64,000 nt of DNA from Diphasiastrum complanatum (Eukaryota; Streptophyta; Lycopodiopsida; Lycopodiales; Lycopodiaceae). Location: the NCBI GenBank assembly GCA_029204225.1, contig CM055103.1, forward strand, positions 23,678,663-23,742,662, read 5' to 3'. Below the pieces are notes generated by a model. It saw only the letters and a list, made by a program, of their open reading frames with translations. It was not told the origin of the DNA and made no database searches. Position numbers and translations under genes: made by a program. The stretch's first letter is position 1. Each line of letters begins with the position of its first letter. Below, one piece after another: positions 5,282-54,600 of this stretch.

Positions 5282-5445
5282 ATAATCTAGGTTTTGTATG
5301 CTGAATGCTTATTTCTTTTCATGTTCAGATAGATCTATGCTAGCAGATAAATCTATTCATAGATTAAACTGTTATTGTATGACTAATAGCATCTGTCGCT
5401 CTAAATCACCGCACCTAAAACGCTTCCACAAAGCTAAATCTGTAA

Positions 5446-24261: not shown

Positions 24262-24858
24262 ATTAGGCGGCCAAATGTGCAGGTTTTGCCAGATTTAGAA
24301 GAGATTTGTGGGCGAGTTTGCTTTTGTAGCATTCCAATCAAGTTTCTAGCTAAAAATCTTGTTGATTTATGTGTAGAAATTGGATCTTTGTGATCAAAAC
24401 ATCATTTGTATGCATTTCAATTGAAGTAGGGCGAATTCCCTCTGTACTTATCAGAATAAGGAGACAAAAATTGTTTTGGAAAGAGGGAGATGCAAGATCC
24501 AACAAGATCCTATTAGTTTTCCATTCTAGCATATAGTTTTTTGATTCAATTTCTTGCTTCTTCATGTCAAAAACTTCAAAATTGATGTAACCCTCTGATT
24601 TTCAGTTTGCTGAATGATTCAAGAGTGTATTTCAATCTTAGGAGTGAGGGAAAAGCAAGTATATTGAGTTTTGGTCTTGGTTTGATCAAGAAATCATAAA
24701 ACTAGTGGCTAAAATTAAGGAAAAAGTGAGGAAAAGAGAGAAAAAGTAAGGTTTTAGGTTCCAAATCTTTGTGATTTCTTCTTGTGTTTCATTTGTTGAT
24801 TCAAGAGAGTGCTTAGTGCATTGGAACAGGTCAAAGATCAGAGATCAATCATTGCAAC

Positions 24859-27800
24859 ATGGCTACAAATGGAGGCTACATGTTGGAAAGCAATGATAGG
24901 CTTACCTCCCTCAACTATTCTACTTGGAAAGTAAGGATGGAGTCTTTGCTTGAGATGAATGAGTTGATGGATATTGTTGTAGGTGTGGAGGAGAGACCTT
25001 TGGCACCTCAAGAACAATTGAGGTATGACAAGAGGGCAAAGAAAGCCCTTCACATGATCAAGATGAATGTGACAAATGAGCTTATCAAAGAGGTTGGTAA
25101 GTGCACATCATCTAGTGAAGCTTGGGAAGCCTTGAAGAAGGTTTATGAATCCAAGTCTACTTCTAGAGTGTTGACTTTAAGAAGGCAAATCTTTTCTTGT
25201 ATGCAAAAGAAGAGTGAGAATGGACATGCTTTTGTTTTGAGAGTTAAAGCATTGAATGATGAGTTAGCATGCATTAATGATGGCATAAATAATGAGGAGC
25301 TTGTTCAAGTGATTCTCAATGGCTTGTTGGATGATCATGCTAATCTTGTTCAAAGTTATGCTATCCAAAAATGTTTACCAAGTGTTGGAGACTTGCAAGA
25401 GGTCTTGTTGGCTGAAGAATTCAGGTTGCAAGCAAGAGTGGGAGCATCTTCTACATCTCAAGGAGGAGAAGAGGAGGCAATGTTCTCTAAAGGCAAGTTC
25501 AAGGGCAAAGGTAAAAGCAATTGGTCTAAAGGGCAAGACCAAGGTGAGCACTCTACTTTTGGCAAAAAGAAGGATAGATCTAAGCTAAAATGTTTCTATT
25601 GTGGAGTCAAAGGGCATTTTGCTAGTGATTGTTTTAAGAAAAAGAGGGATCAAGGGGAAAAGCAAACCAATCTAACTATTGATGAGGGTGGGGATGAGCT
25701 TCTTTCAAATGATGCTTTTGTTATGTCATCTTGCTTGTTGGCTAATCATGGAGACATTGATCCTTGGTGGATTGATAGTGGAGCCACTTCTCATATGACA
25801 TATCATAAAGAGTATTTTTCATCTTTAATGGCATTTGATGGTGATAGGAAGGTAATCTATACCGCAAATGATGGTGAGTGTGCAATCAAGGGGATTGGCA
25901 CAATTCCTATTTCACTTTCTACAAATAGGAATATAGAATTGAAAGATGTTTTGCTCATTCCATCCATTACCAAGAACTTACTTAGTGTAAGCCAAATGCT
26001 TGACAAAGGATTCAAAGTTGAGTTTGATGGTGATGCTTGCTTGATCAAAAAGGGGTGTAGTATCATTGCAAAAGGGAAAAGGCAAGGGAAATTGTTCAAG
26101 CTTGATGCATGTGTTGTTGCTAACCAAGTTGGATGCATGGCAAATGAACAAATGTCAATTCAAGAGGTATGGCATAAAAGGATGGGACATCTCAACTACA
26201 AGGCCTTGGAGGTAATAGCCAAAAAGGAGGTAGTAAGGGGACTTCCCAAGTCTCTTACTTGCTTGAATCATGTTTGTGAAGAATGTGCTTTGTCTAAATC
26301 ACATAGATTGCCATATACTAGATCTATATCTAGATCTAAGATGCCTTTTTCTCTCTTGCATTCGGATATTCATGGTGTTACTACAATTAGCAATGGAGGT
26401 GCTAAGATGTATGTAACTTTCATTGATGATTTTAGTAGATTTTGTTGGGTTTATCTACTAAAGAGCAAGGATGAGGTGTTTGATGTGTTTGTCAAGTTCA
26501 AAGTTGCTATTGAGACTCAATTTACAACCAAAATCAAATGCTTGAGGAGCGACAATGGTGGTGAATACATTTCTAACAAATTCAAAGCCTTTTGCGATGA
26601 GCATGGGATCAAGAGGGAGTACACATGTCCAAGAACACCACAACAAAATGGAGTGGCCGAGAGGAAGAATAGAACCTTGTGTGAGAGTGCAAAGGCAATG
26701 AGATTGAATGCTAATCTTCCTAAACCTTTTTGGAGTGATGCTTTGTTGTGTGCAAATTTCCTATGCAATAGATGGCCAAGTGTTGTATTGGAAGGAAAAA
26801 CCCCTTTTGAAGCTTTGTTTGGTACGAAGCCTAATGTCAAGTTTCTAAGAACTTTTGGATGCATTTGCTACTTCAACATTACTCTTGATGATAGAACTAA
26901 GGAGGATCCATCTTCAAGAAAGGGCATTTTTGTTGGTTATAGTGAAGTAAGCAAAGCATATAGGATTTATGTTCCTTCAATCAAGAAAGTGTTCACAAGT
27001 AGGGATGTCATTTTTGATGAAAGTAACATTCCAAAAGTTGTTTCAAGTGATGATGGTATTGTTGCAACTAATGTGCTTGATGACAATGGAGTTGATGACA
27101 CATTGGATGTGGATGTTGAAGAAGCCTCTTCAAGTCAAATTCCAAGGAGAACTCCAAGACATAAAGTGAAACCCTCAAGGCTCACTTATGATGGCAAAGG
27201 TAAGCAAGTGGTGGATGGATCCAACTATGCTTTCCTAACTTCTTTTGATGTACCTTCATGTGTAGATGAAGCAAGGCAAAAAGAGGAATGGATCCAAGCA
27301 ATGGATCTTGAGTTTGAAGCACTTATGAAGAACAACACATGGAGATTGGTGGAGCTTCCAAAGGGCAAAAGTGCAATTGGATGCAAATGGATCTTCAAGG
27401 TAAAGACAAATCAAGATGGATCTATCAACAAGTTGAAGGCAAGGTTGGTGGCTAAAGGTTATGCTCAAGAGCATGGCATTGACTATGAGGAAACCTTTGC
27501 ACCCGTGGCAAAGATGGTGAGCATAAGAGTAATCATTTCCCTTGCAACTCTTTATGGATGGGATCTTTGGCAATTAGACATTTCTAATGCTTTCTTGAAT
27601 GGTGATCTTGAAGAGGAAGTCTACATGGAGCAACCCAAGAGCTATGTTTCTCATAGCAAGCCTAATCATGTGTGTTTTCTACAAAAAAGTTTGTATGGTC
27701 TTAAGCAAGCACCAAGGAGTTGGTATGCTAGGCTTAACTCTTTTCTACTTTCTCAAAACTTCACTATGAGTGAGTATGATCATTCACTTTACTTTAGAAT

Positions 27801-28809
27801 TAGTGCTAATGATGTTACAATCCTTCTAATTTATGTGGATGACATTATTTTAAGTGGAGGGAACAAGGAAGATATAGAAGATATCAAGAAAGCACTAAAA
27901 AAGGAATTTGAAGTGCATGATCTTGGTCTTTTGAGCTATATCTTAGGAATAGAAGTAATTAGAACTTCTCAAATCACTTTTATTTCACAAGAGAAGTATG
28001 CTATTTCTATTCTCAATAGATTTCATATGGTAGATGCAAATCCTATTGATACACCTATGGAATCACATGTAAAGCTAACTATAAGAGGTAATGAAAGATC
28101 CTTCGAGGACATTACTCTCTATAGGAAGCTAATAGGTTCTCTTATATATCTAACCATCACAAGACCTGATTTATCTTATTGTGTTGGTAGATTAAGCCAA
28201 TTCATGCAAGATCCTAGCATAGAACATTGGAAACTAGGAAAGAGGATCTTGAGATACATCTCGGGAACAAAAGATTTTGGCATTGTTTATAGAGGCTCAT
28301 CACCTAACTTATTTGGTTTTTCAGATTCAGATTTTGCAGGAGACCTTATGGATAGAAAATCCATAAATGCACATGCTATTTTCATAGGTGATGGAGCTAT
28401 CTCATGGATGTCGAAGAAACAAGCAACTATATCACTTTCTTCTAGTGAGGCCGAGTACAAAGCTTTGACATCATGCACAAAGGAGATGGTGTGGATCAAG
28501 AGGATGATTATGGAGCTTCATTTGCTGGATTTTTCAGAGAGTCCAATCATCTTTTGTGACAACCTTTCAGCCCAAAGTCTAGCAAGCAATCCGGTTTTCC
28601 ATGCAAGGAGCAAACATATCGAGGTGGCTTACCATTTTGTGAGAGAACAAGTGTTGGCAAAAGAGATCAAGCTTGAACATGTCCCATCAAAGGAATGTGT
28701 GGCTGATATCTTTACCAAAGCATTGGGAAAGGACTTATTTTTCAAGCATAGAACAAGTCTTGGTGTACTTTCTAAATCTATGCTAAAACTAGTTGAAGAG
28801 GGAGTGTGA
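24859..28809 (+). CDS. Copia gag-pol polyprotein, 1316 codons, intact
   Basis: Single frame encoding every copia protein in normal order. Gag (UBN2-type, from YSTWKVRMESLLEMNELMD) ends in a CCHC knuckle CFYCGVKGHFASDC at about residues 245-258. Protease has WWIDSGATSHM with the active-site Asp near 306. Pre-integrase is VWHKRMGHLNYKAL. Integrase has its DDE residues in LLHSDIHG (about 502), RSDNGGEY (about 565) and GVAERKNRTL (about 601). RT starts near 825 (NNTWRLVELPKGKSAIGCK) with YVDD at about 991. RNase H has SDSDFAGD near 1155, and the C-terminal ADIFTKALGK precedes the stop. The start ATG is the first in a good context (aacATGGC) after the leader. The length is typical for plant copia. 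No stop or frameshift interrupts it, so it could encode active proteins. Confidence 0.97.
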   Translation: MATNGGYMLESNDRLTSLNYSTWKVRMESLLEMNELMDIVVGVEERPLAPQEQLRYDKRAKKALHMIKMNVTNELIKEVGKCTSSSEAWEALKKVYESKSTSRVLTLRRQIFSCMQKKSENGHAFVLRVKALNDELACINDGINNEELVQVILNGLLDDHANLVQSYAIQKCLPSVGDLQEVLLAEEFRLQARVGASSTSQGGEEEAMFSKGKFKGKGKSNWSKGQDQGEHSTFGKKKDRSKLKCFYCGVKGHFASDCFKKKRDQGEKQTNLTIDEGGDELLSNDAFVMSSCLLANHGDIDPWWIDSGATSHMTYHKEYFSSLMAFDGDRKVIYTANDGECAIKGIGTIPISLSTNRNIELKDVLLIPSITKNLLSVSQMLDKGFKVEFDGDACLIKKGCSIIAKGKRQGKLFKLDACVVANQVGCMANEQMSIQEVWHKRMGHLNYKALEVIAKKEVVRGLPKSLTCLNHVCEECALSKSHRLPYTRSISRSKMPFSLLHSDIHGVTTISNGGAKMYVTFIDDFSRFCWVYLLKSKDEVFDVFVKFKVAIETQFTTKIKCLRSDNGGEYISNKFKAFCDEHGIKREYTCPRTPQQNGVAERKNRTLCESAKAMRLNANLPKPFWSDALLCANFLCNRWPSVVLEGKTPFEALFGTKPNVKFLRTFGCICYFNITLDDRTKEDPSSRKGIFVGYSEVSKAYRIYVPSIKKVFTSRDVIFDESNIPKVVSSDDGIVATNVLDDNGVDDTLDVDVEEASSSQIPRRTPRHKVKPSRLTYDGKGKQVVDGSNYAFLTSFDVPSCVDEARQKEEWIQAMDLEFEALMKNNTWRLVELPKGKSAIGCKWIFKVKTNQDGSINKLKARLVAKGYAQEHGIDYEETFAPVAKMVSIRVIISLATLYGWDLWQLDISNAFLNGDLEEEVYMEQPKSYVSHSKPNHVCFLQKSLYGLKQAPRSWYARLNSFLLSQNFTMSEYDHSLYFRISANDVTILLIYVDDIILSGGNKEDIEDIKKALKKEFEVHDLGLLSYILGIEVIRTSQITFISQEKYAISILNRFHMVDANPIDTPMESHVKLTIRGNERSFEDITLYRKLIGSLIYLTITRPDLSYCVGRLSQFMQDPSIEHWKLGKRILRYISGTKDFGIVYRGSSPNLFGFSDSDFAGDLMDRKSINAHAIFIGDGAISWMSKKQATISLSSSEAEYKALTSCTKEMVWIKRMIMELHLLDFSESPIIFCDNLSAQSLASNPVFHARSKHIEVAYHFVREQVLAKEIKLEHVPSKECVADIFTKALGKDLFFKHRTSLGVLSKSMLKLVEEGV
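28795..28804 (+). promoter_or_regulatory. Polypurine tract of young copia
   Basis: GAAGAGGGAG abuts the TG of the 3' LTR and overlaps the last codons of pol. Confidence 0.8.
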
Positions 28810-34706: not shown

Positions 34707-35440
34707 TCATGGCTTCATATAACCCTTGTATTTCTCACACACACATTGAAGTTCAGAAGGCAACAAATTGGACTTGTGAACAAATGCATGTGAGTCAGGG
34801 GTAGACCAAGAATTCGAAAGTAGACAAAATACAAGTGCTTGCATGGCATGTAAGTTTTTCCTTTCGCGTCTCTCAACTGAAAATCTTTGCATGAACATTT
34901 TGGATTCTCACAGATTCTTATTTTGTAAACTTTTTTATTTTTTTGGAACCATCTATGGTAATATCAAACTCTAAGCATTATCCAGCCACCACGATGTTTG
35001 ATCTTGCAACCAAAGCGTGCATATCCAATGCCCAGTTAATGCGATCTAACATAAGCTTTGTCGGGATGAGGTTAACTACAGGTTTGTCACGATCATTAGA
35101 CATGTCTCCAAACACATTTCTTGAAGGAGCACTACCATCTTTTCTTTCAAAAGCAAAACTAGCTACTTCCAACTGTTGTTTTTTATTGCGTGTGATGTCA
35201 GTTCCTCTAGCCACTTTCATACTCTTTGTGCTTCATCTGGGCTATTCAAAATTGATTCCATTGGTTTTCATGTATGTCTTACATCATCGCTACAAAACCA
35301 AAACATCTGACCTTTTATACCTACCATTTTTTGTCATCGAGAAAAGAAACTTGGAGCACGGACACCCTTCCCAGTTCGTCTTCCTTTAAGAACTGCATCT
35401 ACCATCTTCAAACATTTTTGCATAGGCATTAAGGAATAAA
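34707..35440 (-). other. Possible coding remnants of unknown origin
   Basis: Minus-strand frames with protein-like composition: 35220-34978 (RNKKQQLEVASFAFERKDGS ... PVVNLIPTKLMLDRINWALD) and 34898-34707 (RRERKNLHAMQALVFC). Just upstream a third frame reads DAVLKGRRTGKGVRAPSFFS. They could be decayed exons of one gene. They lie directly downstream of the transposase-like gene on the same strand. I cannot name a family. Confidence 0.3.
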
Positions 35441-35599
35441 CACGATGACATTTGTTTTGGGACTTTGACCTGAAAAAGAGTAATTTTTTTGGGTGTTTTT
35501 TAATGGTCCTAGTTTTAGGCCAAAATCATGGATTTTTTTAATAAATCTCTAAATTTTGTTTTTAAAAAAAGCCAAAAAATGCATATTTCAAATAAAGAA

Positions 35600-38500
35600 C
35601 TACAAGTTTTTTGTTGCAAATCTCATAAAACCATCATAATTACAAATGAAATAATAATTCAAGAGAACAAATGATTTTTGAAACTCAAAATCCCATTGAA
35701 ATACAAAACAACTTAAATTATATTTGCACATCCTTTTTTTAAGTACTTTTTCTAAGGAATTTTCACTGATGCCTCTCAATTCAGAACTTGACATATTCTC
35801 AACACTCTCGTTTTCAGCTGATGAAGTGGAAGACCCGTCTTCTTCATCAGAGTCAACTGGCATAACTTCCTCAAAATCTGCATCTAATGTTGACAAAAAA
35901 ACCTTGTAAATAAGCTTTTCTCTGTTGATGACGAGTGGAGGATGATGGTTTTTTCAGTAATCCAAGTCGTTCTTTTGATATAGATATTGTTGACTTTTGT
36001 AGATGATTGGTCATTGTTACTTCAAAATTAAATGCCAAAACGTCTACATCCTATAGATTCAAATCGTCGTCTCTTGGTTGATTTTTTGACAATCTCTTTC
36101 TCTTGCCCTTTGGATCTACTTGCAACATTTCGAGTTCGTACCTTCCCAAAAAAACATTCGTTGAAGTGGTGCGCAACCAATGGACACGTAGTACTTTTGT
36201 TTTATTGCTATTTTGAATAAAACCAAGTACTTTGGCAATCGAAAATGGATGTCCTTCATTGTTTTCTAAAGCTAGAAGTGCAACAAGGCTTCCAATTTGG
36301 ATTTCATTCAAATCACCGCGCCATTTCATTTTTGCAGCTTTTACACTTTGCCTATTCCTCCTTGAGCCCACAAATTTCACATTCCTCACTTTGCACAAGC
36401 TGCAAGAAATCATTATCTCGAGAAAGATTTGAAGGTTCAACAATTGTAGTTGATGTTCCTAATTTATGAGGCCAATGAAATTCTTCAGTTGTTAATGTAT
36501 GTTCGAGATTGAGCAAACTGATTTTTTGTTCCTCGAAAAACTCCATCCACCAATACTGATCAAACTCATCAAAAAAATGATAAGCTGCTTGAATACTTGA
36601 TTCCAAAAAATTTAATGAGGCAAATGGATCAATCTCACGACAAGGACTTCAAGAGAGACAACACAACAAGCTTGATCTAAGTCGATGGAATGTTAAGCAA
36701 AAATCTAACTCCTTCAAGAGGTAGCCACAAAACTGAATTTAAAAATAGTTTGCCCCATAATAATATAATGTCTGATTCGTTACATTTGATTTTAAACTGG
36801 TGCTGAAAGCTAATATCATTAATATTAGCTACGCATCGCTCTGTTTTGTTGGACGCCTTAACATAATCACAAAAATCATATGTGTGTCTGATTAATGACA
36901 CGTTTGGCTTTGACACATATAAATCCTCAACAATGCTTTGAAGCACTGGTAATGAAAATACTTTCTTGCATCTCAACCTCTTAGAAAAGCAACTAAACAT
37001 TTGATCAATTTAATCGTGGGTATGTCCTACCAACAAAAATCCTATTTTTACTTTTTTGAATTTTTTTTTCTCCACTAGCATAAACAAGTATGCCAAAACA
37101 GTTTGGTTTTTAACTTTCTTGCATCTCAACCTCTTAGAAAAGCAACTAAACATTTGATCAATTTAATCGTGGGTATGTCCTACCAACAAAAATCCTATTT
37201 TTACTTTTTTGAATTTTTTTTTCTCCACTAGCATAAACAAGTATGCCAAAACAGTTTGGTTTTTATTTTTCCTAGTAGTGTTGTCAAGCTGCAAATAAAG
37301 TATTTCTGGAAGATTTTTACCAAATTCGCAAATTATCTTATGTACAATGGTGATCATCAAATTTGGATCATTTCAAACATTGGGATAATTACAAAAGACC
37401 TTGGACTCCAAAGTGCCATTAAACATAAGTGCTCCAACAAGATGAACCTGAATAAAATCTGCCTCGTTCAAATTTTTGGGCACTCTGACAAAATGAGGCA
37501 ACATTGTTTTCTTCTGATCCATGCCATCGATAACAAGGCCCAGATATTTTTGTGGACATTCCAAACATTTCTTTCAATGCTTGGGCAACTTTTGTCTTTC
37601 AGTTGTTTGTTGATCTCTGTGCAGTTGAAGAGCTTTTGCAGCATCCACTAAAAATACAATGATTCACTTATTTAATAGAATAAAGATCATACCATAATGG
37701 TATTCAAAAAGACTACAACATAAATTTTTTCAAAACAGAAAGTATTAAAATGAATGACAATTTGATTAATATTTACCTTTCTCATCATTGGTCTTTGCAA
37801 GTTGTTTTGTAGACTTTAACAACTTGCAAGTGGAGCGTACTGTCATTTGTGATTTTTTTGGGAATCTTTACCAGTCCAAAATCTCTTTTCCAAATTCTAA
37901 GAAAATACTTTGTACATAAAAAAATTTGTAAAATTATCTGACAAGTTAAAATATAAGGAATTAGGCAATTTCTCTTCGTGCACATCTATGAAATGCTTTA
38001 GGGAAGCAGTTGCATTCAAAGCATTTGGAGAAACAGTTCGACCCTGTAAGGATCCCCGTAATGTTGGGTCTTTCTGAAGTCGTGCATGCATTCATTGAAG
38101 TCGTGAGTTTCCGGTTGCGTGAACTGCTTTGTAAGCTTTGCGACAAACCTCCAAAGCATTTAAAAAATACAAAAATGAGTTTTTGTCTGGCCTCACTGTT
38201 ACACACAAATAGTAATTTCTCTCATCCTTACTTCGTAAAAGGAAGTTTGATCTTTATTTTCAATTTCTCTGATACTCAGCTTTTGCAAACAACATGATGA
38301 GCAACAAATAATATTCGGTACCTTTCGAATCTCAGATTTTGTAATCAATTGTTTTTGACCATTAGTTAAATCAGGTGAGGATCTCAAGTCCCTATTGTAT
38401 TTTTCTTTTTGTTTGGAGTCTGATCTATAAATTGAACCTGTGACACCAGTAGGTGCTTGAATTGGTTGAGAAGGTGTTGGAATTTCACGACTCAGAATTC

Positions 38501-39023
38501 TGGCTCCAACCTCAGGATGTTCTAGACCCTCAGAAGGCTCTAAATTTTCAAGGAATATAGCCCTTTGAGATTTAACACGACGAACATCACTTTGAGAAGG
38601 TCTCCTATAAACATGAGAAAAGCTTGAACGTCGTGGATCAACAGACTTACGCAGATCTGTTGATTTACTAGAATTAGTAATTGAGTGAATTGAAGTTTTT
38701 GACTCATCACTGAATGATTCAACTTGTTAAAAAGAACAATGTTCTAACTGTGCAGAGCCTGTATCTGAAGAGGAGGACGAGTTCGAAAGATTTGACACAA
38801 GTTGAGTTACATGCATCATTTCTTGAAATGTACTTGCTTGAGGAATTTCAGAAGATGAACGGGTAAATGATGATGATGCCACATCATTTATGAAAAAATG
38901 TTCAGATTCAAGAGTGGCTTTATAAAAAAAACTTTCATTAGGAATATCAGATGAAGATGATGCACTTGTTGCAACGTATTGACTTACAGCTACTGGAATA
39001 GAAGAGATAGAACTACTTAACAT
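35600..39023 (-). pseudogene. DDE-like transposase, DUF7869-type, decayed
   Basis: Minus-strand gene in several frames. Order: Ser-rich N-terminus (39023-38727); basic linker with YRRPSQSDVRRVKSQRA; a Cys cluster (ICCSSCCLQKLSIREIEN); VCRKAYKAVHATGNSRLQ; IWKRDFGLVKIPKK. The putative catalytic block follows: DGMDQKKTMLPHF (about 37500-37535), VHLVGALMFNG, LYLQLDNTTRKNKNQ (about 37258-37302) and IGFLLVGHTHD (about 37170-37205). Then come IDQMFSCFSKRL, PVLQSIVEDLYVSKPNVSL and LEHTLTTEEFHWPHKL, a BAH/chromo-like module (IQIGSLVALLALENNEGHP, LRVHWLRTT; 36443-36051), and an acidic tail (35896-35600). The D...LDN...HTHD pattern is what I recall for DUF7869 proteins, which I infer are transposase-like RNase H folds. 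A 153-bp tandem duplication, stops (TAA inside HTHD-x-IDQMF) and frameshifts inactivate it. Confidence 0.7.
36961..37266 (-). repeat. 153-bp perfect tandem duplication inside transposase gene
   Basis: Two consecutive copies (36961-37113, 37114-37266) that look identical by eye. The unit is 51 codons and covers the NQTVLAYLF...GHTHD...SKRLRCKK segment, so the duplication itself would be frame-neutral. Confidence 0.9.
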
Positions 39024-39055
39024 CGTAACCTTAAAAGAAATTTTAACTATGTACT

Positions 39056-39068
39056 TATGCTAAGCATA
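39056..39068. repeat. ATGCTWAGCAT palindrome, copy 1
   Basis: TATGCTAAGCATA, 33 bases upstream of the transposase start on its 5' side. Related words recur at 39608, 48311, 48364 and 48448. Confidence 0.8.
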
Positions 39069-39280
39069 GACCCGTTAAAATAGTTAACACAAAACTAAAT
39101 GTGCTCCACAAACTTAACTGCAACCTATGCTGGTCATAGAACAAATAAAAAGCTATGCGAACCTCAATAGACGTATACAAGAAAAACAACTAAATGCAAA
39201 TGAGCAACAAGCCCAGAAAGTAACTGGTTAATTAAAATTTTCAGCGACTACCATGTCTTAAATACTGTTTGGCAGCATTC

Positions 39281-39329
39281 TTAGGGTTAGGGTTGACCCA
39301 AGAGTAGATTTAGGGTTAGGTTTAGGTTT
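39281..39329 (+). repeat. Short telomere-like tract
   Basis: TTAGGGTTAGGGTT at 39281-39294 and TTTAGGGTTAGGTTTAGG near 39309. On the transposase strand these read as telo-box words (AAACCCTAA), which are common in plant promoters. Confidence 0.6.
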
Positions 39330-39607
39330 GGACGGTCCCGGCCCAGGCTTGAGGTTGGCATGAGAGAGGTGAGTCACGACAACTCGGTCCCGACGCAAGC
39401 TAGAGGTCTGGCATGAGACGGGGGTCTCAAATTTTTTTTTATTTAAGGACCGTAGTCCAAGCATAACTCACCTCATCTGCAAACTTAGAAGCACACATGC
39501 TGCCAGAGCTCTTGCTATGACAAAGTCATGGCTTTCTATAGGATATTGTATACGTGCTCACTCACAGATTTTTTGACGGTAAGATTATTGTCATTTTTTA
39601 ATTTTGT

Positions 39608-39624
39608 TCTATGCTTAGCATGGG
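39608..39624. repeat. ATGCTWAGCAT palindrome, copy 2
   Basis: TCTATGCTTAGCATGGG. It lies about 40 bases left of the copia LTR that starts at 39662, in the presumed divergent promoter region. Confidence 0.8.
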
Positions 39625-39661
39625 TATTGAATTATTAGTTAGAATTAAAGTAAAATCACTG

Positions 39662-39892
39662 TGTTACTGTACTGTGGGTCCTATCAGTGGATAAGGATCA
39701 GTTGGCCTCGCCACGAGGCAAGTCGACGGGACACGAATCCCGCCAACGACAACCTGGGTCATGCATGGGTTGCCTGAGTGTATGTACAATGTAATTTCAT
39801 TTTGAGAAATACAGTTGCTATGTGAGCTTGCTGTGGAGAGTGTTTTCTGTTTGTGTTATTGTGTAGCATGATTTGTGTTCATGTGCAGAGCA
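39662..39892 (+). repeat. Copia 5' LTR (about 231 bp)
   Basis: TGTTACTGTACTG...GTGCAGAGCA followed 10 bases later by a PBS. Short LTR with a TG...CA form; the right end is judged from the PBS position. No second LTR copy was found in the window. Confidence 0.6.
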
Positions 39893-39902
39893 AACTCTAA
39901 GT

Positions 39903-39914
39903 TGGTATCAGAGC
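39903..39914 (+). promoter_or_regulatory. Primer-binding site
   Basis: TGGTATCAGAGC, initiator Met tRNA type, about 1.3 kb upstream of the gag ATG. Confidence 0.85.
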
Positions 39915-41210
39915 TGTACAGGGAGTGTACACAGTACAGCATCGCCGTTGAAGAGAGCTTCGGGAAAACTATCTTATGAGAGTTCAGGGTTTACGACGGG
40001 TTGAAGATGGAAAGAGAAGCACTGGTGCATGGTTTCTAGTTTATAGAGGCTTGCTAATCTTAGCAGAGGGATTATTAGCTTGTGCATAGCATCAGACAGA
40101 GAAAATTTTGGTGAAAAATTGACAATTTTTGAAGCCAGCTGAAAATTGAAATCAGACTTGGGGTTACAATTTTTATACATAACTGGTGATTTCTTCGCTG
40201 TTTATGCACCGTTTTGGATGCCGTAAGGACAAGAAGGAAGCTAATCACATTGTCAACCAGCCATGGAGAGATTCTGAGGTTTATGTCAGAGATTTGTCTC
40301 CAGACAGTTAACCTAGCAGATTTGCGGTAAAAATGTGAAAAAAGCCACTTTGTCAAGTTGAGCTAAAATCACCGTTTCTCTATGGAATATCTTGAGTGAA
40401 CACTCTATAGTCGGGAATCAGTAGGGCGACCCTGCTCTAGGTCTCAAATTGTGCTCAAATCGATCCACAAACGAATTAGATCAAGAAAATTTGAGTGTGG
40501 GGAGGCGCGACCGCATACAGGGAGGTCGCAGGCTGTTCGCACATGGAACCAGGGTGAGAGCGTAGCATCTGGAAGGCCATAGCGATTGTAGGAGCGTGGT
40601 TCAATGCCCAGATGCAGTTTGGACCTTTGGATGAGGTGTCAGATGCATCGATGGTCCAGAACTTGTGATGGGAGAGAAACGTGGATCACAAGATTTGGTT
40701 TAGCCATTGGATGGGCTTTGAACAGGGCCCTGAAGAAGTGAAGTGCATTTTGGCCTTCAACTTCATTAAAAATTTTCATACTGAAATTGGAATTGGGTCC
40801 CTTCACAAGTGAAGAATGAAGTTTCTTCAAGGTGAAGAAACAATTCAAAAACTAGAAAAGTCTCTATTTTTGGATCCTTTGCCCGTTTTGACCCAAACGA
40901 AAGGCTATAACCTCCAAACGAAGGGCATCCAGATTGTACCTGCAAGTACGGTACAACAAAACCGAGTGATTGCAGTGGAAAAAGTGCTTGGAGTATGCCA
41001 GAAGTGATTTCACCATTCCACTGGGCACGTTGTTGGGAGTTGACGACTGAGTGCATTTCGGAAAGCAATGCCAATTTGGCTTTCAACTTGGTGGAAAAGC
41101 GGCGAGTGGCATGATAAGGGAGAAAAGGTCATTATTTTCAACTTCTAACATCACTGTTGGCCTCGGCATACTATTATTAGCCTAACGTAGAAGTTTCAAG
41201 CAGTTTTGCG
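39915..41210 (+). other. Long untranslated leader of copia element
   Basis: About 1.3 kb between PBS and gag ATG; no credible frame. It is longer than the 609-base leader of the young element, so it may hold an insertion. Confidence 0.5.
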
Positions 41211-42496
41211 ATGGCAAACATGGGAGAGTCCATTTTGAGTGAAAGTAGCAAATTGGACGGGATTTCCAACTATGTAGTGTGGAAATTCAAAATGAAAAAC
41301 ATACTGATGGTAAAAGACGTGTGGGAAGTCATCACGGGTGATGAAAGAAGGCCGCCAAATGAAGCAGATATCAAAGTGTTCGACAAAAAGATGAGGAAAG
41401 CTTTGACCTTCATCAACTTGTCAGTAAAGGATCACATCATTACCCACATTTGTGATGCTGTCACACCTAGACAGGCATGGGATGTGCTAAAGGAGCAGTT
41501 TGAGATGTCAAATCCGTCAAGAATCATGTTTCTGAAGTCAAAGTTGAATAGTGCCCACATGGAACAAGGAGAGCACAGTCAGATGTACATGACCAGAATC
41601 AAGACAATGAGAGATGAACTGCATTCTATTGGTGAGCGCATACGTGATGTGGAGCTGGTGCACAATGCATTGTGCAGCATTGCAGAACCCTATCAGATGT
41701 CTGTGAATAGAATAGCATCAAGGGAAAGATTGTCAAACTTTGACGAGCTCACAAGAATCTTGATGTAGGAAGAGCAATGACGAGAAATGGTGAAAGCTAG
41801 ATGTCAAAATACTGACGATCAGGCACTTGCGACATGCCAAAAACAAGGCAAGGGCAAGGGCAAGAAAAAGTCTAAGCAGCAATTTGCCAAGTCTCAGGAG
41901 GATGAGGGATCTTCCATTAAAACTAAGAAGAAAGGCAAGTGCTTCCATTGTGGTAAAAAGGGCCATTGGAAGAGTGAATGTCGCAAATTTCTGGCGGAAC
42001 AAGGCAAGGGAAAACCAAAACAAACAGGTAAACTTTTCGATGAGTGTGAGATTGAAGACTCTAGCATCTTCATATATGCATTGTCATCTAATCAAGATGA
42101 TCAAGCATGGTATATTGACTCGGGAGCCACAAGACACATGACAGGTAACAAGAATTGGTTCAGTAGTTTGAAGGTGCTGGATAATGGAACATCTGTTTCA
42201 CAAGCAAATGGTGAGGTGTGCAAGATCAAGAGGATAGGCACCGTTTTAATCCAACTACCTGATGGCAAAAGCAGGATGATCAGGGAGGTACTTTACATAC
42301 CAGGTTTGAAGAAAAATCTACATTCTGTTGGAGTCATTACTGATCAAAAGTTGAAAGTAGAATTCGCCCATGATCATTGCTTTGTGAAGGATGTGAACCA
42401 AAAGTTCAAAGTTATTGCGGATGGAGTAAGAGAGTCCAATCCAAAATTGTACAGGTTGAATGCTACAATTAAAGGGCAACATAGACTTGTATCAAT
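41211..42496 (+). pseudogene. Copia gag-protease, truncated
   Basis: The first frame (41211-41768) is a UBN2-type gag beginning MANMGESILSESSKLDG, with VVWKFKMKNILMVKDVWEVI and EQFEMSNPSRIMFLKSKL. A TAG and a TGA around 41766-41781 interrupt it. The second frame (41787 on) has a basic linker, the CCHC knuckle CFHCGKKGHWKSEC, protease AWYIDSGATRHMTG and the post-protease strand LKKNLHSVGVI. Homology stops at VSMP (42496), where a repeat shared with 46574 begins. Integrase, RT and 3' LTR are absent: the rest was lost or displaced by the inserted gypsy block. Confidence 0.85.
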
Positions 42497-42640
42497 GCCA
42501 ACTAATTACAGTTTATTTACAATTTACTTACAAAGGTCACCACAGGCTGGTGACTTAGCCATTTTAGTAATTACAATAATTACAAAACGTACATGTGTCT
42601 CTAAAAACTGTAAATAACCGGGACAGGGAGTAAAGGCTCT
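42497..42640 (+). repeat. Direct repeat, left copy (with 46574-46708)
   Basis: TGCCAACTAATTACAG...GGCTCTAACA. The right copy reads TGCCAACTAGTTATAG...GGCTCTAACA and lacks about 17 bases (the 'aaaaactgtaaataacc' portion). The TG...CA form suggests very short terminal repeats or a pre-existing duplication around the gypsy insert. Confidence 0.8.
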
Positions 42641-45600
42641 AACATCCCTTTCTACTAAAAAAAAAGACATCGTTCGTGATGACCAAACTAGGGTACTGTG
42701 CATGCAAACTGTGCGCTGTCTCTCAGGCAACATCTGTAAGAGGTCTTCCATGCCAAGCAACTAGATATATCAATGATCAAGCGGTTACACAGACGTTTCT
42801 CCCGCCTATCAAATATCCTTGTTGGCTCATGGATCTCCTCTCCATGCTCCTGAATAGAGTCACAACTGACTCATCTCTGTACACCGGAGTTGTTGACAAC
42901 AACTGGCCTAATCAAGCCTCCTATGATAACCAACATCCCATACTATTGGCGATCACACTCGGCTCTCACTAGCACCACAATTTCTTGTCTTAAATTTTTT
43001 CAACTAACTCAAGCATCTTACTCATAGAGTTAGAAATCAACTGTACTAGGCGCTTTGAGGAATTCCCACCGTAACAAAACTAGTAGGCCTAAAACCATAT
43101 TGGACCACCAAAAGTTATAGAGGATCATCTCATAGGTCCAATCCACACCCGGATGACTAGCACCAGTACTATCATAACATAAATGCAAAATCTCCCTACA
43201 CAGCCCTTTACTTAATACGAACTGAAATGGGGAGTTTGCCATTTTCTTTAACTATACCATCTGCCATGGTATACTTCAGGCAAGTGTGAGCAAAGAGATC
43301 AAAGCTCTCCTTCTGAGACTCTGCTTGGCCAAGATTTACCTCTCTCACAACCTCTTTACAATAAACAATGAGGATCCTCTTGCTAAATTTATCTGATCTC
43401 AACAAGTAGGTCATTCTCTATGACCACAAAAGACATTCGATACAATATACGAGATAATGCATCAAGCACATGATTTTTGATACCTTTCCTGTACCGAATT
43501 TCGATGTGAAATTCCTACATCAATTCAACCCACCTGGCTAATTGCAGAAATACATAAAAATGTCGGCATACTTTCAAAGCATGGACAACGACATACAACT
43601 CTTCTGAGCAAGGTTGAGCTTCTCACTCACAAAGGCCACGGGCCTACCCTCTTGCATCAGAATTGTCCCAACGATGAACCATCAGAATTGTCCCATCAGA
43701 ATTGTTGGCGTATACAAACCCACACCACACAAAAAATTGCCTCCATACTTTCAAAGCATGGACAATGGCATACAACTCTTCTGAGCAAGGTTGAGCTTCT
43801 CACTCACAAAGGCCACCCTCTTGCATCAGAATTGTCCCAACGATGACATCACTTGCATCCGTTACTATGACAAATGGTTTCTGAGGGTCTACTATCTTTA
43901 ACGTGACAAAGTCAAGCACAACTTGTTTCAAAGCGTTGAAACTTCATTGCTAAACTTCTGTCCACTTATTATTCTATAGCATATCAGTCAAAGGTGCAGC
44001 CATGTGTGAACAAGCCTTCACACCTTGCAATAAAACCCAAACAGTCCAAGAGAGCCTCTCAATACCGTCAAGTCTATAGGTACAGGCCACGTAAGGAGAA
44101 CAACTCTTCTTAGATTTAGTTTTATGGCTTCAGCTAACACACTAAAATCCAAATACACTATCTTTTATTATCAATAGCAAACTTATCCCTCGGAGTTGAC
44201 AAAATAGTTCTAAGGTGAGTTATGTGCAACACGTCACCACAACTGTAAACCAAAACGTCATCCATAAACAATCAAAGTATGTCGTTCATCAACATCATAG
44301 ATGTTGTTGGGGCATTAGTCAATCAAAGGCTTAGTCAAAAATTTATAGTGACCAAAACAAGTTCTGAAGTCAATCTTATGCACATGCACTTTCGAATATC
44401 CATTTTTCAAACAACTTTGCTAAAACAGCAGCACCGTATCATATCAGATCATCAATATGTGGAATAGGATATCGATGCTTGACAAACTCCGTGAACATTG
44501 GGCGTCTCATACCGTCCTTTGCCCCTAGGGAGTTCAAGCATCGATAAGCCCACACACATATGCCATGACCCGTTTGTTGGTCTAGGTTCATAAGTAAGTC
44601 AACTTGTTCTGGCCATATGTTACTTTTGGAACCAGCAGTAAACATATCAAACAAAAACAAAAACATACATGCTTACAATGAACCCCCACATACTAAGCTA
44701 CCATGATCAAAGGTTCTGGAGGCACATCGGGCTCACCTCAAAGTGAATGGATTCTCTTTGGAGGCTACGAGTCTGCTTCTTTACAACGAAAGGTTTTGAG
44801 ACTTCCATGCAAGCCCTCAATAAAATGAAACACTGCTTCTGGTTCGTGTGAGGATCTTGATGTCTTCAACATTCAAGCATTTGTTGAAAAATCACCTCCA
44901 TAGAATCCACCTTGGCTGCCACTTCCTCAACTCTCAATATCTCGATGCTAGAACCCTCCAACGGATCCATGTTTACAGTGTTGCAAACTTGTCCACCTGC
45001 TCAGAGGTCAAAATTATCGGTACAATTGAGTTTACGACTCTCAAACCCTTTTTTCCTTGTATTTTGGCGCAAAAGTTAGAAGAACTTTGGAAGGCTATAG
45101 CTTTTCCACGAACTGGACTTTTCCTGAGCGGTCAATTTGTAGTGGGTCACCCTCCAGCTCTTTCCAATGAACCCTTAACAGTCTGGTTTAGGCTAGAATT
45201 GCCCAATTATCAAGCAATTTCTTCTCAGCTGGTTTTGCACCTATGTATAAGAACCAAATTTTGAAAAAACACCATAGGACTCTGTTTTCTTTGCTGTAAA
45301 TTGCATACTACAGCCCTTGAGGTCTGCCTAAAAGACTCCCAGAATTTGAGGATGATCCAAAAATCGAACGGAAAGTTACGAAGAAAAAACTCTTCAGCCT
45401 GCCAATGCCCACCAGCCACAAGAAAATTCTCAAAATCGCTTGGATTTCGCTGCTGGGGTTGGTTCCTATGACTAATCTACTCATTAGAGGAGTTCTAAAT
45501 CCAAAAAAGACCCTTTGTAAAGATTCTTTCTATATTTTTTCTCAATTTTTTCTTACACATGGACCAATCAAAACACTCAAATTTGAAATCTACGTAACGT

Positions 45601-46018
45601 AACTTTCTGAGTCCACATTTTGAATCCACACTAAAAATGGCATAACTTTTTAGTGGTAAGTCCAAATTTAGCGGAGTTTGGTGCATTGGAAAGCGCTCAA
45701 CAAGGGCTTTTCAATGATATGTTAGATGACATACTTTTGAGCTGTGATTAAAAAGTTATGGCAAGTCAAAAGTATTAGTGTTATAATATTTTAATAATAT
45801 AAACTATATCTTGCACGAATTCTTAAAGGGTCTTTTTGGAGCTCAAAACTCCTCTAATGGTGCCTTAGCAATAGGAACAGTTTGCAATAGATCCAATAAC
45901 CATCTGAGCTCTCAATCAAAAGTTATGAGCAAAAAACTCCTCTTTCTCTCTCTAGAACGTGTTTGTTTTTTGCTATCCCAAGCTTCCAAAACTTGCAAAA
46001 CTTGGCTCTGATACCAGA
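42641..46018 (-). pseudogene. Degenerate Ty3/gypsy element, minus strand
   Basis: From the minus-strand PBS (reverse complement of TGGTATCAGAGCC at 46004-46016) downward, recognisable pieces are RT near 44666-44250 (GAKDGMRRPMFTEFVKHRYP, a YPIPHIDDL block and GHYKFLTKP) and the integrase zinc-binding region near 43414-43030 (YTMADGIVKENGKLPI, GASHPGVDWTYEMILYNFWW). Almost every segment has stops and frameshifts. There is a local duplication at 43555-43640/43740-43830 ('gcatggacaa...gagcttctcactcacaaagg'). Gag is not recognisable in 45-46 kb. Confidence 0.7.
45485..45860 (+). repeat. Dispersed repeat shared with 5446-5690
   Basis: See the copy at 5446. Here the two matching halves (about 45505-45570 and 45812-45860) are separated by about 225 bases absent from the other copy. 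Confidence 0.6.
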
Positions 46019-46573
46019 TGTCAGACTCCAAATCTGAAACTTCACTTAAAACCTGGCCTATCCCGTGCACAACAATCAGCAATGTTGATCCCTGTCGATT
46101 CCTTGCATGTACAAACATCAAAGCACACGAAACAAGGTGGAGCTGGCTGCCTTGTCTCCACCCAACCTTGGCTGCATAAATTATGATCCGGAATGCCTCT
46201 CTCTAGGCTCACTTATGCACAATCCTCAAGCACCCCTTAACCCTGACCTTTCCTAACGTCGACACATGGCCAATTCCATGCATAATCGACACTTGCCACT
46301 TGGCAGTACCCTGACACATAGGCAAGTGAGTAGGCTGACATGTGTCACTCATACACTAGACCAAGTGTCCCTGCGAGCATGTGGCACGTGTCATGTTTGA
46401 CCGATCAACCCTGACATGTGTCACTCATTCACTGGACCAAGTGTCCTAGTGAGCATATGACAAGTGTCCCATTGACTAGTCAACTCTCTTACTTTTTAGG
46501 AGGTCAGTTCAACCACTCCTAATAAATGACCCAGTACCCCATGCCAAAGCTAAGCACGACTCTCTGAGGTCCA
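46019..46573 (-). repeat. Gypsy 5' LTR, minus strand (approximate)
   Basis: Starts (plus coordinates) TGTCAGACTCC two bases past the PBS. It contains repeated 'cctgacatgtgtcactcat' words near 46331 and 46414. Right border not resolved; it ends before the direct repeat at 46574. Confidence 0.5.
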
Positions 46574-46708
46574 ATGCCAACTAGTTATAGTTTATTTACA
46601 ATTTACTTACAAAGGTCACCATAGGCTGGTGACTTAGCCATTTTAGTAATTACAATAATTACAAAACATACATGTGTCTCTCCAGGACAGGGAGTAAAGG
46701 CTCTAACA
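46574..46708 (+). repeat. Direct repeat, right copy (with 42497-42640)
   Basis: Ends '...ggctctaaca', directly before the first recognisable codons of the methyltransferase gene. Confidence 0.8.
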
Positions 46709-48310
46709 GGAAAGATCCAATCTATTCATTACAGAGTTCAAAAGGTATATCTATTGGACCTCGCAAGCCTGCTTCTACCACTGCTCAGGTCACTGAAAAC
46801 GTTGAGGATGAAATTGTAGTTGTCCCTCATCCCAAAAAAAAAAAGAGCTCATAATATTTCCGAGGCTTCTCTCACTAGACCCCAGTCACACCCAAAGACC
46901 ATGGCTACGCATTGTGATAAGTCCATTCCATCTGCTGAAAGCAAGAAAGCTGCCACCGAACCATCGATGTCTCTACCTGGTGCATCCATCCGCCCCTTAC
47001 AAGATAGCTCTGAGCTTGCCAAATTAAGAGAAAATATGCATAAAACAAAAAAAATTAAAAAAACAACTTTGATTTTAGATATAAATCAGTGTGATAGGCC
47101 AACTGTAGACCCAATAACAGGAGACAGACCAATGGAAGTAAGAGAACTGAATGAAACACATGTACATAACTTAAAAATAAAATTTAAAGATCATACACAG
47201 GCCATAGTTACTCCTTTTGTTGTTTTGGTTGATCCCAATGAATGCAACGTTGTTGCAAATTTTGAGTTTTTTTTATTAGATTCTTATCATTTTTTTGTTC
47301 TTGGAGGCATACACAGTTACAAGCCTGGAAACAGTTATCTCAAGAGTATCCCCATATTCCAACCTTTCGAACTGTGAGTGCTATTGCATTTGCTGGCCTG
47401 ACAGTGGAAGAAGCAAAATTATTGGCTTGGGACCATAATATTGATCAGGACTACCAGATGAAGATGACCGTGATACAAAGAATTTGATTTTTTCACAAAG
47501 AATACTTGAGAGTCTCCAATGTAGGAGATGTGAATCAACCAGAGCTGAAAGCACTCAGTGCTCAAGAGACTGGCCTGCCTTTTGATTCGAAAAATCCTAC
47601 GCAGAGCCTTAGAAAATATGATAATTTTTTTCAGCTTGCTTTTTGTAGTGGCCAGGTAATTTTTTTTGCTATGCTCGTCATGAAATGCTCTGGACATAAT
47701 ATATGTTGTAATCCTCTTGAATTGTTTTTATCAGACTAAAATTTTGAACTCAATTTTAATACTCCCTAAATTTCTTATCAAATAATTTTTTTTTTGATTT
47801 TAGGTGTGGGCCCTTGTTGATAAATTTTTTGGTAAATGTGAAACTTTTCAAATAAAAGACCAACCTGCTCAGGGTGCCTCAAAGTCAAAGAAAAAAGCTG
47901 TCAGCACTCAAACTCTGAAGCCAATCCCTACAGAAATGGGAATATCAGAGTGGAAGAATATGCAAGGGATTAGCTCTTCAGAGCTAATAATAAGTGTTCT
48001 TTCTAGAGTTGTTGATGGTCAACTTTCTCTGGTAGAAATGGGGAAAGAATTTCAAAGGTAATAGTCATAATCTGAATATTTATTTTCATGTTACCTTTTG
48101 TAATAAAGTGATTTTCATGATTTTGTTGGACTTTTAACAATTGTACTTTTTAAATGCAGACATAAATTATTTATGAAAGTTCAAGAAGCCCTTGTGACAG
48201 GGCTAAACTGTCAAAATTTCGAAGAGTGCCAGAGGCTTTATCCTTTGAGCAGCTGAAATGAATCTTTGAGTCCATTTTTTATTTTGTTTAGAGACATGGT
48301 ATTTATTTCA

Positions 48311-48327
48311 CCCATGCTTAGCATAGG
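48311..48327. repeat. ATGCTWAGCAT palindrome, copy 3
   Basis: CCCATGCTTAGCATAGG, in the intron-like stretch between the ParB and methyltransferase parts. Confidence 0.8.
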
Positions 48328-48363
48328 TGCTTATTAATTGTTTCTTTTTTATATTTTATGTCT

Positions 48364-48379
48364 CCTATGCTAAGCATAG
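48364..48379. repeat. ATGCTWAGCAT palindrome, copy 4
   Basis: CCTATGCTAAGCATAG followed by 'ctttttcttt'. Confidence 0.8.
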
Positions 48380-48447
48380 CTTTTTCTTTATTTAATTATT
48401 ATTTTCTGATATTTTAAGTCTTCCATTCTATTTCATATTTTGTGTCT

Positions 48448-48464
48448 CCCATGCTAAGCATAGC
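48448..48464. repeat. ATGCTWAGCAT palindrome, copy 5
   Basis: CCCATGCTAAGCATAGC followed by 'tttttctttt'. With copy 4 it forms a direct repeat of about 36 bases ('tgtctcc.atgctaagcata'). Confidence 0.8.
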
Positions 48465-49790
48465 TTTTTCTTTTCTAGTCTCCCGAAGATAAGAAAAATA
48501 AAGTCCTTCCAGAGCAATTCAAGAGGCATATTCTGAAGGCAAAAGTAGAAAAAAAGGACTGAGAGAGATTGGCACGGGGTGAGACCATTGCGGACGAGGA
48601 TCTATTAGAGGCCTACCTTCCCAAAAGTGTTGATGATCAACCATGCTTCTACTCAATTGAGGAGGGCGATTGTAGAGAAATTTCAATTTTTTAAAAAAAA
48701 AGAGCTTATACACTCTGCATTGTCGATATACCATATGGATTTCAGATGAAAGAATCATTAAATGATGATTTCCCCTTCAAATTCACTAAAATCCATAGTT
48801 TTATGCAGGGTTTTCTTGAAGTCACAACTTTTCCAATTTGGAGAGTTGTTATTTTTCATTCTTCTTGGCAGTCAGCTTTAGTACAGAAAGCTCTACTAAC
48901 TTTCTGTAACGCGAGAATAGAAAATGCTGTGTGGTAAGTTTTTAAGTTCCTGAATTATTAATTCATAATTTTATTTTAATTTTTTTATTTTAAAGTTAAA
49001 ATTTTAAATTTATTTTACTTGTAATGTTTCATGTCAGGTACAAGCCCAATGTCAAGAACTCGGGAGGAGCACAACTTTGCAATGAAATAGAATACATAAC
49101 CATCGGTTATTATTCTTTGGATGGCAAATGCTCGATGTTTCATTACAACACTTCCGGACTGACAAGTTTTGGACACTTGTTCCAATATCCAGCCATGACG
49201 AAAAAATTAAAAAATCCAATGACGGGTTCCGTGGCTTGTTCCTACCAAAAGTCACAACAATTAATTAATCATTTAATTGATATTTTTTTACACCCAGCTG
49301 ATTGGGTTTTGGATTTATTTAGCGGTAGCGGCACTACGAGCACATGTGTTGTTCAAACAGATCGACATGTTGTTGTAGTAGGTTTAGATACTAATTTAGT
49401 TGATTTTGTAAAAATGTGAATGAAATCTCTTTCAGTTTTGCCAGATGAACTATTTGAGGTGGGAAAGAGTTTACATAGCGAGGATATAGTAGTTCCCTTG
49501 TCCAAGGAACCTCAGCCTCATGCTAGCAAAAAAGTAGACGACACAGGAGAATTTACTGATGTCTTGGTTTAAGATTATAATGTGATTACGGTAGTCGAGG
49601 AAATTGTAGAAGAGGTGCCACTTGAAAGTACAGTGGCTACTCAAGAAAAAGAAAAAGATGTAAATGACCTTGACGATTTTTGGGAATAAAAAATTCTCTT
49701 TTGTTTTAAAGAATAATTGTGTTTATATTTCTTGATGTATTGTGTTTTGAAATCTTTTTGATTGATTTAATGTTTTTAAATTTGTCCTAA

Positions 49791-51651: not shown

Positions 51652-54600
51652 CTTCCTAGATCAAGCATAAATGTACCTCATTCAGAATTCCCTCTCTCCT
51701 TTCTTTATAATAAAAGAATTCAGCTGGAAGACGTAAGACGTACTTGCTCCCAGAGAAGCTTGCAGGGACTATATAAAGCTTGAATTTATGTTCTGATAAG
51801 GGCTGTTACACCTGAGGAGACATTGCAGATTTGAGCTGGAGACTGAGAAGAGGAAGTCACTGATTCGGAAGAATGGTACGTCTTCGCACATTGAGTGGTC
51901 ATATAGCGGGTAGTGTGAATTTATATGTTTGAGCATGAAGGCATTTCTGCAAGCATTGTTCTTAAGTGTTTAATTGGAGCTGGATCTTGGGAGCGAGAAC
52001 TACGTGTTAGTAGAAAGTAGAGTAGCCGAAGTAGCTTATAGTCGATTGAAATGAATTCGTGAGTACTGATATGATGTTCAGGAGAGTAGAAAGCAACGAA
52101 TTTTATTTGGGTCCTGTGCCATACTATTACTTTAGGCTGAGAAAATGACTGCCAAATTTGTCTACCGTAGTCTATCTGTATCATTAATGTCTGTGATTGA
52201 CACTCAATTCTTGTGTCCTCCAAGGAGGAAAAAAGTTTCTCGTTGGATCAACAGCAACAGAAATCTAGGGACTTGGACAAGCTCTCCATAGGTTTTGCAC
52301 CAGTTGATATTCATGGCAAGCCTATGGATCCTAAGAAATATCTCAGTACTGGTGGCTGGAAGGCTTCCATGTTTATTTTTGGTATGAATGCTCTACCTCT
52401 AGGCTCTGTCTAGCCAAATTTCGGAACGATTACCAATTGATCAATTCATCTAATGTCCATAAGTAGTGAAAGAAACAGGTCTGAATAGGAGGCGTCTGTT
52501 GAAAAGAATGAATATATCTGACAAAACTAGCACCTACTTTGCGTTGTGTTGAAACAGGAAATGAGATTACAGAAAGAATGGCATATTATGGGCTAGCAGT
52601 AAATTTTATCAACTACCTGGCATACAACATGCACTACAAATTTTCAGAGGCAGCAACGATCTTTCTTGAGGTAAAACACTTTACATACGACTTGTCTGCT
52701 CTTTCCAGTCATATCTGAGAGCCATTATAATGGCCTGGATTTCCTCTGATTTAGTTGATGCATCTATAATTTTCTGTTTCTCTTCTGCTAAATCCAAACT
52801 AGTCTTGTTAACCTTTGTTCCCAGCTTCTAAACAGCATATTCCTGAAGCTGTTGCACAATCTGCCTTATTCCGAATAAGTAAGCCTATACCTATAACTAA
52901 ATTGAGCAGGTAATTTTCTTTCAACACTTTTCTGAAATCTGCTAGCCCATTGGATAGGACTATTATTGTTAGATGAAGCTATATTTTCAGCCTAGTTACT
53001 AGTAACTGTTCTTCCTTGCATACATTAACATCGAAAAAAATATTTGGATACAAGATTTAGTAATTATGAGGCCTTTGAGGTGATATGTTTCAATTTAAAA
53101 ACCATGGACAAGAATCAAGCATTTAGCATAAGTTCTCTATTGATTTCGTGTAGTTTGTCCTCTTGCTAATCCACATCAATAGTTCACATGATCTAGATTT
53201 GCACTCCAAATTAGACTCATCCATTGATTTTAAGCTGTACTAAAGCATGGACTGAAGTAGTAGATTGATTATATGTTAGTTGCTCCATAGATGCTCATCT
53301 GTTTTGACATAAACACTGACATTTGGGCTCCCTGTTGCAATATATGCAGATTCCTAGACAAAGCAGCAGTGATAACAGATTGGGATGATGCAGTGGAGGA
53401 CAACTACATCAACCCATGGCACCTGTGCACAGTGACACAAGTTGAGGAAGTGAAGGCCCTGGTGAAGTTGATCCCAGTGTGGCTCGTCTGCTTCATCCCA
53501 CAAACTGTCACCCAAACCCTGGTCAATTTCACAGTGCAGCAAGGCAACACCATGAATAGGAAGATTGGCCCTCACTTTACAGTGCCCTCTGCAACAATCC
53601 CTATCATCACTGCAATCTTTGTCCTCGTACTCTTGCCCATCTATGACGTCATTCTAGTACCCCTTCTCCGACGTGTCACCCACAATCCACGTGGCATCAG
53701 CATGTTGCAAAGAATGGGCATTGGCCTTATAGCGACTATCATGGCGACAATTGTTGCAGCGCTTTTCGAGACCCACCGTCGCCGCGTTGCCTGGGCCACC
53801 CACGTGGCAACCAACCCTCAGCAAGTCCTGCCCATCAACGCGTTTTGGCTGTCAATGCAATATATGTTTTTGGGTGTGGCAGAGGTGTTCTTCCTAGTGG
53901 GACAACTAGAGTTTTTCTATTGCGAAGCACCAGATGGGGTGCGTAGCATCGGTACGTCCTATGTCTACACGGCCAACGCCATTGGCAGCTTCATTGTGAG
54001 TTTGGTGGTGAAGATTGTGGAACAAAAGATTGGTCGCCATGGCAATGCACCTTTGCTTGCCGAAAAGTGCCATGTCCCTAGGGAATTTCTTGATTTTCCT
54101 AGTGGTTGCATATTTCTATAGATATAAAAGGTCTTCCATAGATCCAAAAAAGCAGACAACCGTGGAAACCATTGACTGGTAGTCGTTGAATAAGAGCATA
54201 TGATCAAGCTTGTACTATGTTTTTTCTTTTGTTGAGCAAAATGGTACTATGTTGAGAACTAGGTTCGTATTCTCCAATCTCTGGATTCTTTTTTCAAAAC
54301 CTTGAGTTGTTTTGATTTTATATTATGATTTAAGTAATAAGCTGAGCCTTGTTCTAAAGGTTACTCTCCTATTAGTTTCCAATTAGCAACAAATTCAATA
54401 TAAAACTCAATTTTGCTTGTATTCATTGATTTGGATGTACTATTTGAGGACTCAAGATACTTCAAGCAAGAAGTCGTAAATTTTACTCAACAAATTATGC
54501 ATATTATGACCTTGTGAAAAATATGGAAATCTAGAGACCATTTAACGCATCATGAAGGTGCCCTCCTCAAATCTTCAACGAGGGCTTGCATTAGTGATGC

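Follow-up and report, generated by a model that had tools for sequence, protein, structure and literature searches.

The stretch of Diphasiastrum complanatum DNA analysed here (64,000 nucleotides of contig CM055103.1, referred to below as the window) harbors a decayed gene in which a ParB-like part is joined to a putative DNA amino-methyltransferase. It makes up the right-hand half of a DNA transposon whose other half, with the transposase, lies on the left and starts at 35439; the window copy of this element is dead. We propose that it belongs to a family of two-gene transposons with terminal inverted repeats (TIRs), that the same layout recurs in a second lineage where the methylase is constrained, and that the DUF7869 protein is the transposase of the family, a reading to which we assign a probability of about 0.93. 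That the methylase gene travels as transposon cargo is close to certain.

Anatomy of the window element

The element survives in two segments, 35439-39636 and 46708-49783. Its features are as follows (L numbers designate individual loci):

35439-35452, + strand: left TIR, AACACGATGACATT, the same end as in sister copies, preceded by AATA
35439-39636, + strand: left part of the transposon, in pieces 84-94% identical to L016, L022, L033 and L032
35807-39047, - strand: decayed transposase gene, found by tblastn with pieces of L016 and L009
36960-37265, no strand: exact tandem duplication of 153 bp within the transposase remnant
39637-46707, no strand: foreign DNA, 7.1 kb and partly Copia-like, replacing the middle of the element including the first methylase exon
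46708-49689, + strand: decayed ParB-methyltransferase gene, from three-frame translation and profile matches
46850-47655, + strand: ParB-like exon, with a frameshift near 47323 and a stop at 47485
47656-47803, + strand: intron 1, GT-AG, phase 0
48058-48159, + strand: intron 2, GT-AG, phase 2, in place and phase as in L037
48299-48478, + strand: intron 3, GT-AG, containing a direct repeat
48479-48933, + strand: exon with motif IV (DIPYG), stops at 48560 and 48692
48934-49037, + strand: intron 4, GT-AG, splitting a Trp codon, as in L037
49038-49689, + strand: last exon, with motif I (DLFSGSGTT) and the N6_N4_Mtase match, stops at 49417 and 49570 ahead of the terminal stop
49690-49783, + strand: 3' flank of the methylase gene, where element homology ends, the right inverted repeat being lost

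About 1.0-1.2 kb of the element, the first methylase exon included, is missing from the window, and a right-end-like match at 50328 was rejected, given 10 matches against 8.2 expected by chance. The transposase is matched in four pieces (35807-36371, 36698-37648, 37772-38408 and 38700-39047), and the match to DUF7869 (PF25273) was obtained with the transposase pieces of L016. The foreign insert contains Copia gag-like frames at 41181-42617 (+) and a 110-bp repeat pair (42493-42602 and 46572-46681).

The preliminary description of this DNA had recognised a ParB-like block and an N4/N6 amino-methyltransferase in one gene, with GT-AG introns joining the exons in frame and one of them splitting a Trp codon, and had called the copy dead. 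The motif blocks it named are present in the three-frame translation of 46680-49720, all four introns have GT-AG ends, and two of them are shared with L037; splicing of the window gene is inferred from reading frames and relatives. Fern open reading frames lack intron 1 and run continuously across its site. The damage amounts to six in-frame stops and the single frameshift, in addition to the absent first exon and right end, and thus agrees with a dead copy. Within intron 3, at 48342-48473, a unit with ATGCTAAGCATAG is present twice (92%), and the same 13 bases ATGCTAAGCATAG are found at 39057-39069, in the left half of the window element.

A large family with inverted ends and target duplications

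The window genome (1.7447 Gb in 5176 contigs) contains the methylase last exon in 2594 first-look candidates, and all 150 that were scored match at 76-100%, the window included. These matches fall on every one of the contigs C1-C23, which refutes for the window the possibility, raised in the preliminary description, of a bacterial contaminant without further copies. The transposase gave 2666 first-look candidates, of which 150 were scored, and the left end 1129, with 40 of 40 scored at 96-100%. When the 150 listed matches of each gene were compared, at least 17 methylase/transposase pairs emerged, all divergently oriented; 14 of the 17 are spaced 3.7-6.4 kb, and the window copy is among the three wider ones.

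Twenty copies were fetched, chosen for an open last exon and hence biased toward better-kept ones, and 17 of them show at the expected place the right end GGTCATCATGTT or a variant with at most two changes. The left end of family elements reads AACACGATGACATTTG..., and the inverted repeats are short and imperfect. Both ends were sought in 12 sequences, of which L009 gave no left end, leaving 11 measured elements. Nine of these are flanked by exact 4-bp target duplications (AACT, AACT, TTCC, TTAA, GATG, AATA, AATC, AACT and GATA) and the other two by 4-bp flanks with one mismatch. The DNA flanking L016 also flanks L025; the two were treated as a single site, so that eight exact sites are independent. 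Seven elements measure 8.2-9.1 kb, whereas four of 4.5-6.2 kb lack inner parts; L023, L026 and L028 have been stripped of large parts of either the transposase or the methylase gene. L032 has another candidate right end, at 4.5 kb, likewise followed by TTAA; the end at 8.3 kb was chosen because it matches the family exactly.

Spliced genes, TIRs and target duplications bear out the earlier suggestion of a prokaryote-type enzyme in a eukaryotic mobile element, but not the term "domesticated" if it means that the gene has settled in the genome, since a great many copies of it are carried by TIR transposons. A reading as a long interspersed nuclear element (LINE), prompted by the constant 3' end and variable 5' start, was rejected in view of the introns, inverted ends and target duplications.

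A second lineage with the same layout

When the genome contigs of bacteria and archaea were scanned, nine methylase loci (L036-L044) turned up, all from one bin named 'uncultured Trichormus'. Trichormus azollae is a listed species and is the symbiont of the fern Azolla. One contig of the bin carries a tRNA-Thr with anticodon AGT, which is typical of eukaryotes; because of this tRNA and of the introns in the genes, the nine contigs are read as plant DNA, presumably that of an Azolla fern.

In five of the nine contigs (L036, L037, L041, L042 and L043) the transposase lies head-to-head with the methylase, and the other four start at most 0.9 kb from the methylase match, too short to show it. L037 includes an element with both ends (568-8291), a TIR beginning AACACG and TGTT flanks. 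Pieces of the window copy or of L016 are 27-44% identical to this lineage, intron 2 and the Trp-splitting intron keep the same place and phase in both, and the fern-bin gene has an extra intron within motif I.

Protein relatives and domain assignment

The gene read-through returned a single match among 5.8 billion proteins (7998 candidates scored), Ginkgo Gb_10123 at 37% identity. A second search, started from residues 230-758 of that protein, yielded 28: four Ginkgo models, the query counted, 15 unnamed European Nucleotide Archive (ENA) proteins, which represent as many as 60 sequences each, seven low-scoring methylases of prokaryotic type and two fern proteins, one from Adiantum nelumboides and one from Ceratopteris richardii. 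All ENA proteins except P0010 (14 of 15) stop where window intron 2 starts.

The last exon is assigned to the amino-methyltransferases by Pfam (PF01555, N6_N4_Mtase, E 6.6e-10, above the cut-off), the gene read-through matches the phage profile phrog_67 (2e-8), and in the window gene, matched by the PF01555 profile, motif IV precedes motif I. The methylase is filed under PF01555 only and is a predicted enzyme. The ParB-like part has a ParB/sulfiredoxin fold, and its block is strongly conserved across 20 aligned members (P0001-P0021 without P0019). Concerning the transposase, an RNase H-like core with conserved acidic residues corresponds to that of DDE/D transposases. DUF7869 is listed in Pfam as a family of unknown function; it resembles a transposase core with an RNase H fold. 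Its proteins (P0029-P0130) occur in a lancelet and sea urchins as well as in ferns and liverworts, and a literature search for DUF7869 and for DN4MT1 found nothing.

Selection and decay

Distances at the three codon positions were computed for all pairs, leaving out codons read as stops. In the fern-bin lineage the medians at positions 1, 2 and 3 are 0.246, 0.173 and 0.590 for the ParB exon and 0.181, 0.096 and 0.530 for the motif IV exon (28 pairs each), 0.147, 0.064, 0.524 and 0.172, 0.126, 0.521 for the last two exons (15 pairs each), and 0.215, 0.151 and 0.479 for the transposase (10 pairs). Position 3 is the most diverged in all 86 methylase-exon pairs and in all 10 transposase pairs, and therefore the methylase is under roughly the same degree of constraint as the transposase; the fern-associated copies look selected for function. 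Several of them have stops in some exon, L044 most. The codon-position distances were relied on because saturation leaves few pairs usable for NG86 ratios (MT_E1 3/28, e45 5/28, e6 5/15, e7 9/15, transposase 10/10), whose medians are 0.04-0.13.

Among copies of the window genome, position 3 has the largest distance in 50/55 and 21/36 pairs for the ParB pieces, 106/153 for the motif IV exon, 63/210 for the last exon and 3-18 of 21-28 for the four transposase pieces. These patterns suggest mostly the decay expected of dead burst copies, with a trace of older constraint. NG86 medians of 0.44-0.55 would alone suggest constraint, but frameshifted pieces disturb this measure, and the codon-position distances are almost level for the last exon and the transposase. 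The expectation of intact relatives thus held in part: better preserved copies exist in the fern-bin contigs, and among the window-genome copies checked none is open in every exon.

Several observations weigh against the proposed reading. The RNase H-fold matches of the transposase include Argonautes besides transposases. The canonical amino-methyltransferase motif IV is (D/N/S)PP(Y/F/W), and this family departs from it: the window and most readable copies have DIPYG rather than DPPY, the 20 fetched copies include VYIPYEF, ADIPYEF and ADISYGF, the Ginkgo models DIPHG and DISQG, and the Adiantum gene EAPYG. Confidence is low for the methylase half of the structure model. No Pfam ParB model matched among the 20 family members at E 1, a search in which DUF6551 was a weak match in 10 of 20 (best 0.0078). 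Finally, the window-genome last exon diverges nearly evenly over positions (0.112, 0.086 and 0.102) and DLFSGSGTT is unchanged in only 10 of the 20 fetched copies, hence there is no sign of recent use in that genome. PMC8885841 names DPPY along with other forms of motif IV.

Possible role of the methylase and alternative explanations

In the mechanism we suggest, the DUF7869 protein, read leftward, would act as the transposase and move the element by cut and paste. The ParB-like part may bind element DNA, perhaps as a clamp gated by cytidine triphosphate (CTP), and would bring the amino-methyltransferase to it, which could then place N6-methyladenine (6mA), or N4-methylcytosine (4mC), on the element. 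Such a base mark might aid or time transposition, or help the element evade host silencing. That the methylase marks the element's own DNA is a tentative proposal, with somewhat less than even odds. As its product, our guess leans toward 6mA, given that motif IV starts with D, even though I takes the place of P at its second position. More doubtful is the broader idea that vascular plants host a long-lived transposon clade marking itself with 6mA or 4mC through a ParB-guided methylase, with a transposase whose BAH-like histone-reading domain would let the element read chromatin as well as write its own mark.

The element could also work as a unit while its methylase acts on DNA or RNA of the host, for instance to weaken host silencing, rather than on its own DNA. 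The ParB-like domain in the same protein may point to a bound DNA target, and we hold this alternative to be unlikely. Much less likely still is a host gene caught by chance as a Pack-type passenger with no role for the element: near-neutral decay of the window-genome copies and the loss of much transposase or methylase in L023, L026 and L028 would fit it, but a passenger would not be expected to lie head-to-head with a related transposase in lineages as diverged as the fern-bin one, nor to be about as constrained there as the transposase. A domesticated low-copy plant methylase, of which the window copy would be a pseudogene, might be suspected from the annotated models in Ginkgo, Adiantum and Ceratopteris; the copy number, TIRs and target duplications refute it for this genome and make it hardly credible in general. 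Contamination with bacterial or phage DNA, or insertion of a virus, is of negligible probability: the best phage-library matches are phage methylase families (phrog_67 and phrog_498), but the gene has introns, copies lie on each of the chromosome-size contigs C1-C23, two pattern scans of viral contigs found no relative, giant viruses included as a putative source, and the ParB exon of P0020 has no match in phages or plasmids. With P0008, 40 phage records were matched in the methylase region only (best E 2e-5 among the 25 listed).

Relation to known systems

The importance of 6mA and 4mC in land plants is disputed. Marchantia reportedly has a 4mC enzyme, a case of DNA amino-methylation in a land plant, as predicted here, with a host function in sperm, unlike the element. 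A 4-bp target-site duplication is found in Sola1 transposons. It is stated for Sola2 too (PMC3627910), and our elements share this duplication length.

Contrary to what the preliminary description implies, mobile DNA of eukaryotes does offer precedents: ParB-methylases of algal transposons are already reported (PMC12477816). The brown-algal Sola1-1_Ec32 of Ectocarpus combines, as here, a ParB-like part and an N4C/N6A methyltransferase in one protein, encoded by a DNA transposon on the strand that does not carry its transposase; compared by description, it differs in host, length (21.5 kb against 8.2-9.1 kb in vascular plants) and its 1104-aa protein, ours having introns. According to the same paper, similar proteins are carried by transposons of green and red algae. 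The bdelloid N4CMT is, like ours, a prokaryote-type PF01555 enzyme in a eukaryote, described at the date of PMC8885841 as without eukaryotic homologs; unlike ours, it is a chromodomain-fused host gene that marks transposons rather than riding in one, and the word ParB is absent from PMC8885841. With phrog_67 and phrog_498, the best phage-library methylase profiles, the methylase part alone aligned, and they belong to viruses of prokaryotes. Green- and red-algal sources aside, the literature searched holds no report of such transposon methylases from ferns, clubmosses or seed plants; as far as searched, the vascular-plant host range, the element anatomy with ends and target duplications, the two common introns and the methylase constraint are new.

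The family offers a mobile amino-methylase with a defined enzyme, its own copies as candidate targets, and a decayed and a constrained lineage to compare. If DUF7869 is a transposase core, many 'hypothetical protein' genes that bear it in ferns, liverworts and sea urchins may in reality be transposons. It should also be noted that a public bin assigned to a cyanobacterium (uncultured Trichormus) seems to include plant DNA, in the form of at least nine contigs.

Other features of the window

Within the foreign insert, a 387-bp piece (45473-45859) has 35-nt inverted ends and an inverted copy inside L033 (92% identity), and is perhaps a small non-autonomous element. Near-identical fragments of a peptide-transporter-like gene lie in opposite orientation at 6607-7539 (-) and 53291-54121 (+), and a Copia-type polyprotein frame of 1330 aa, free of stops, spans 24817-28809.
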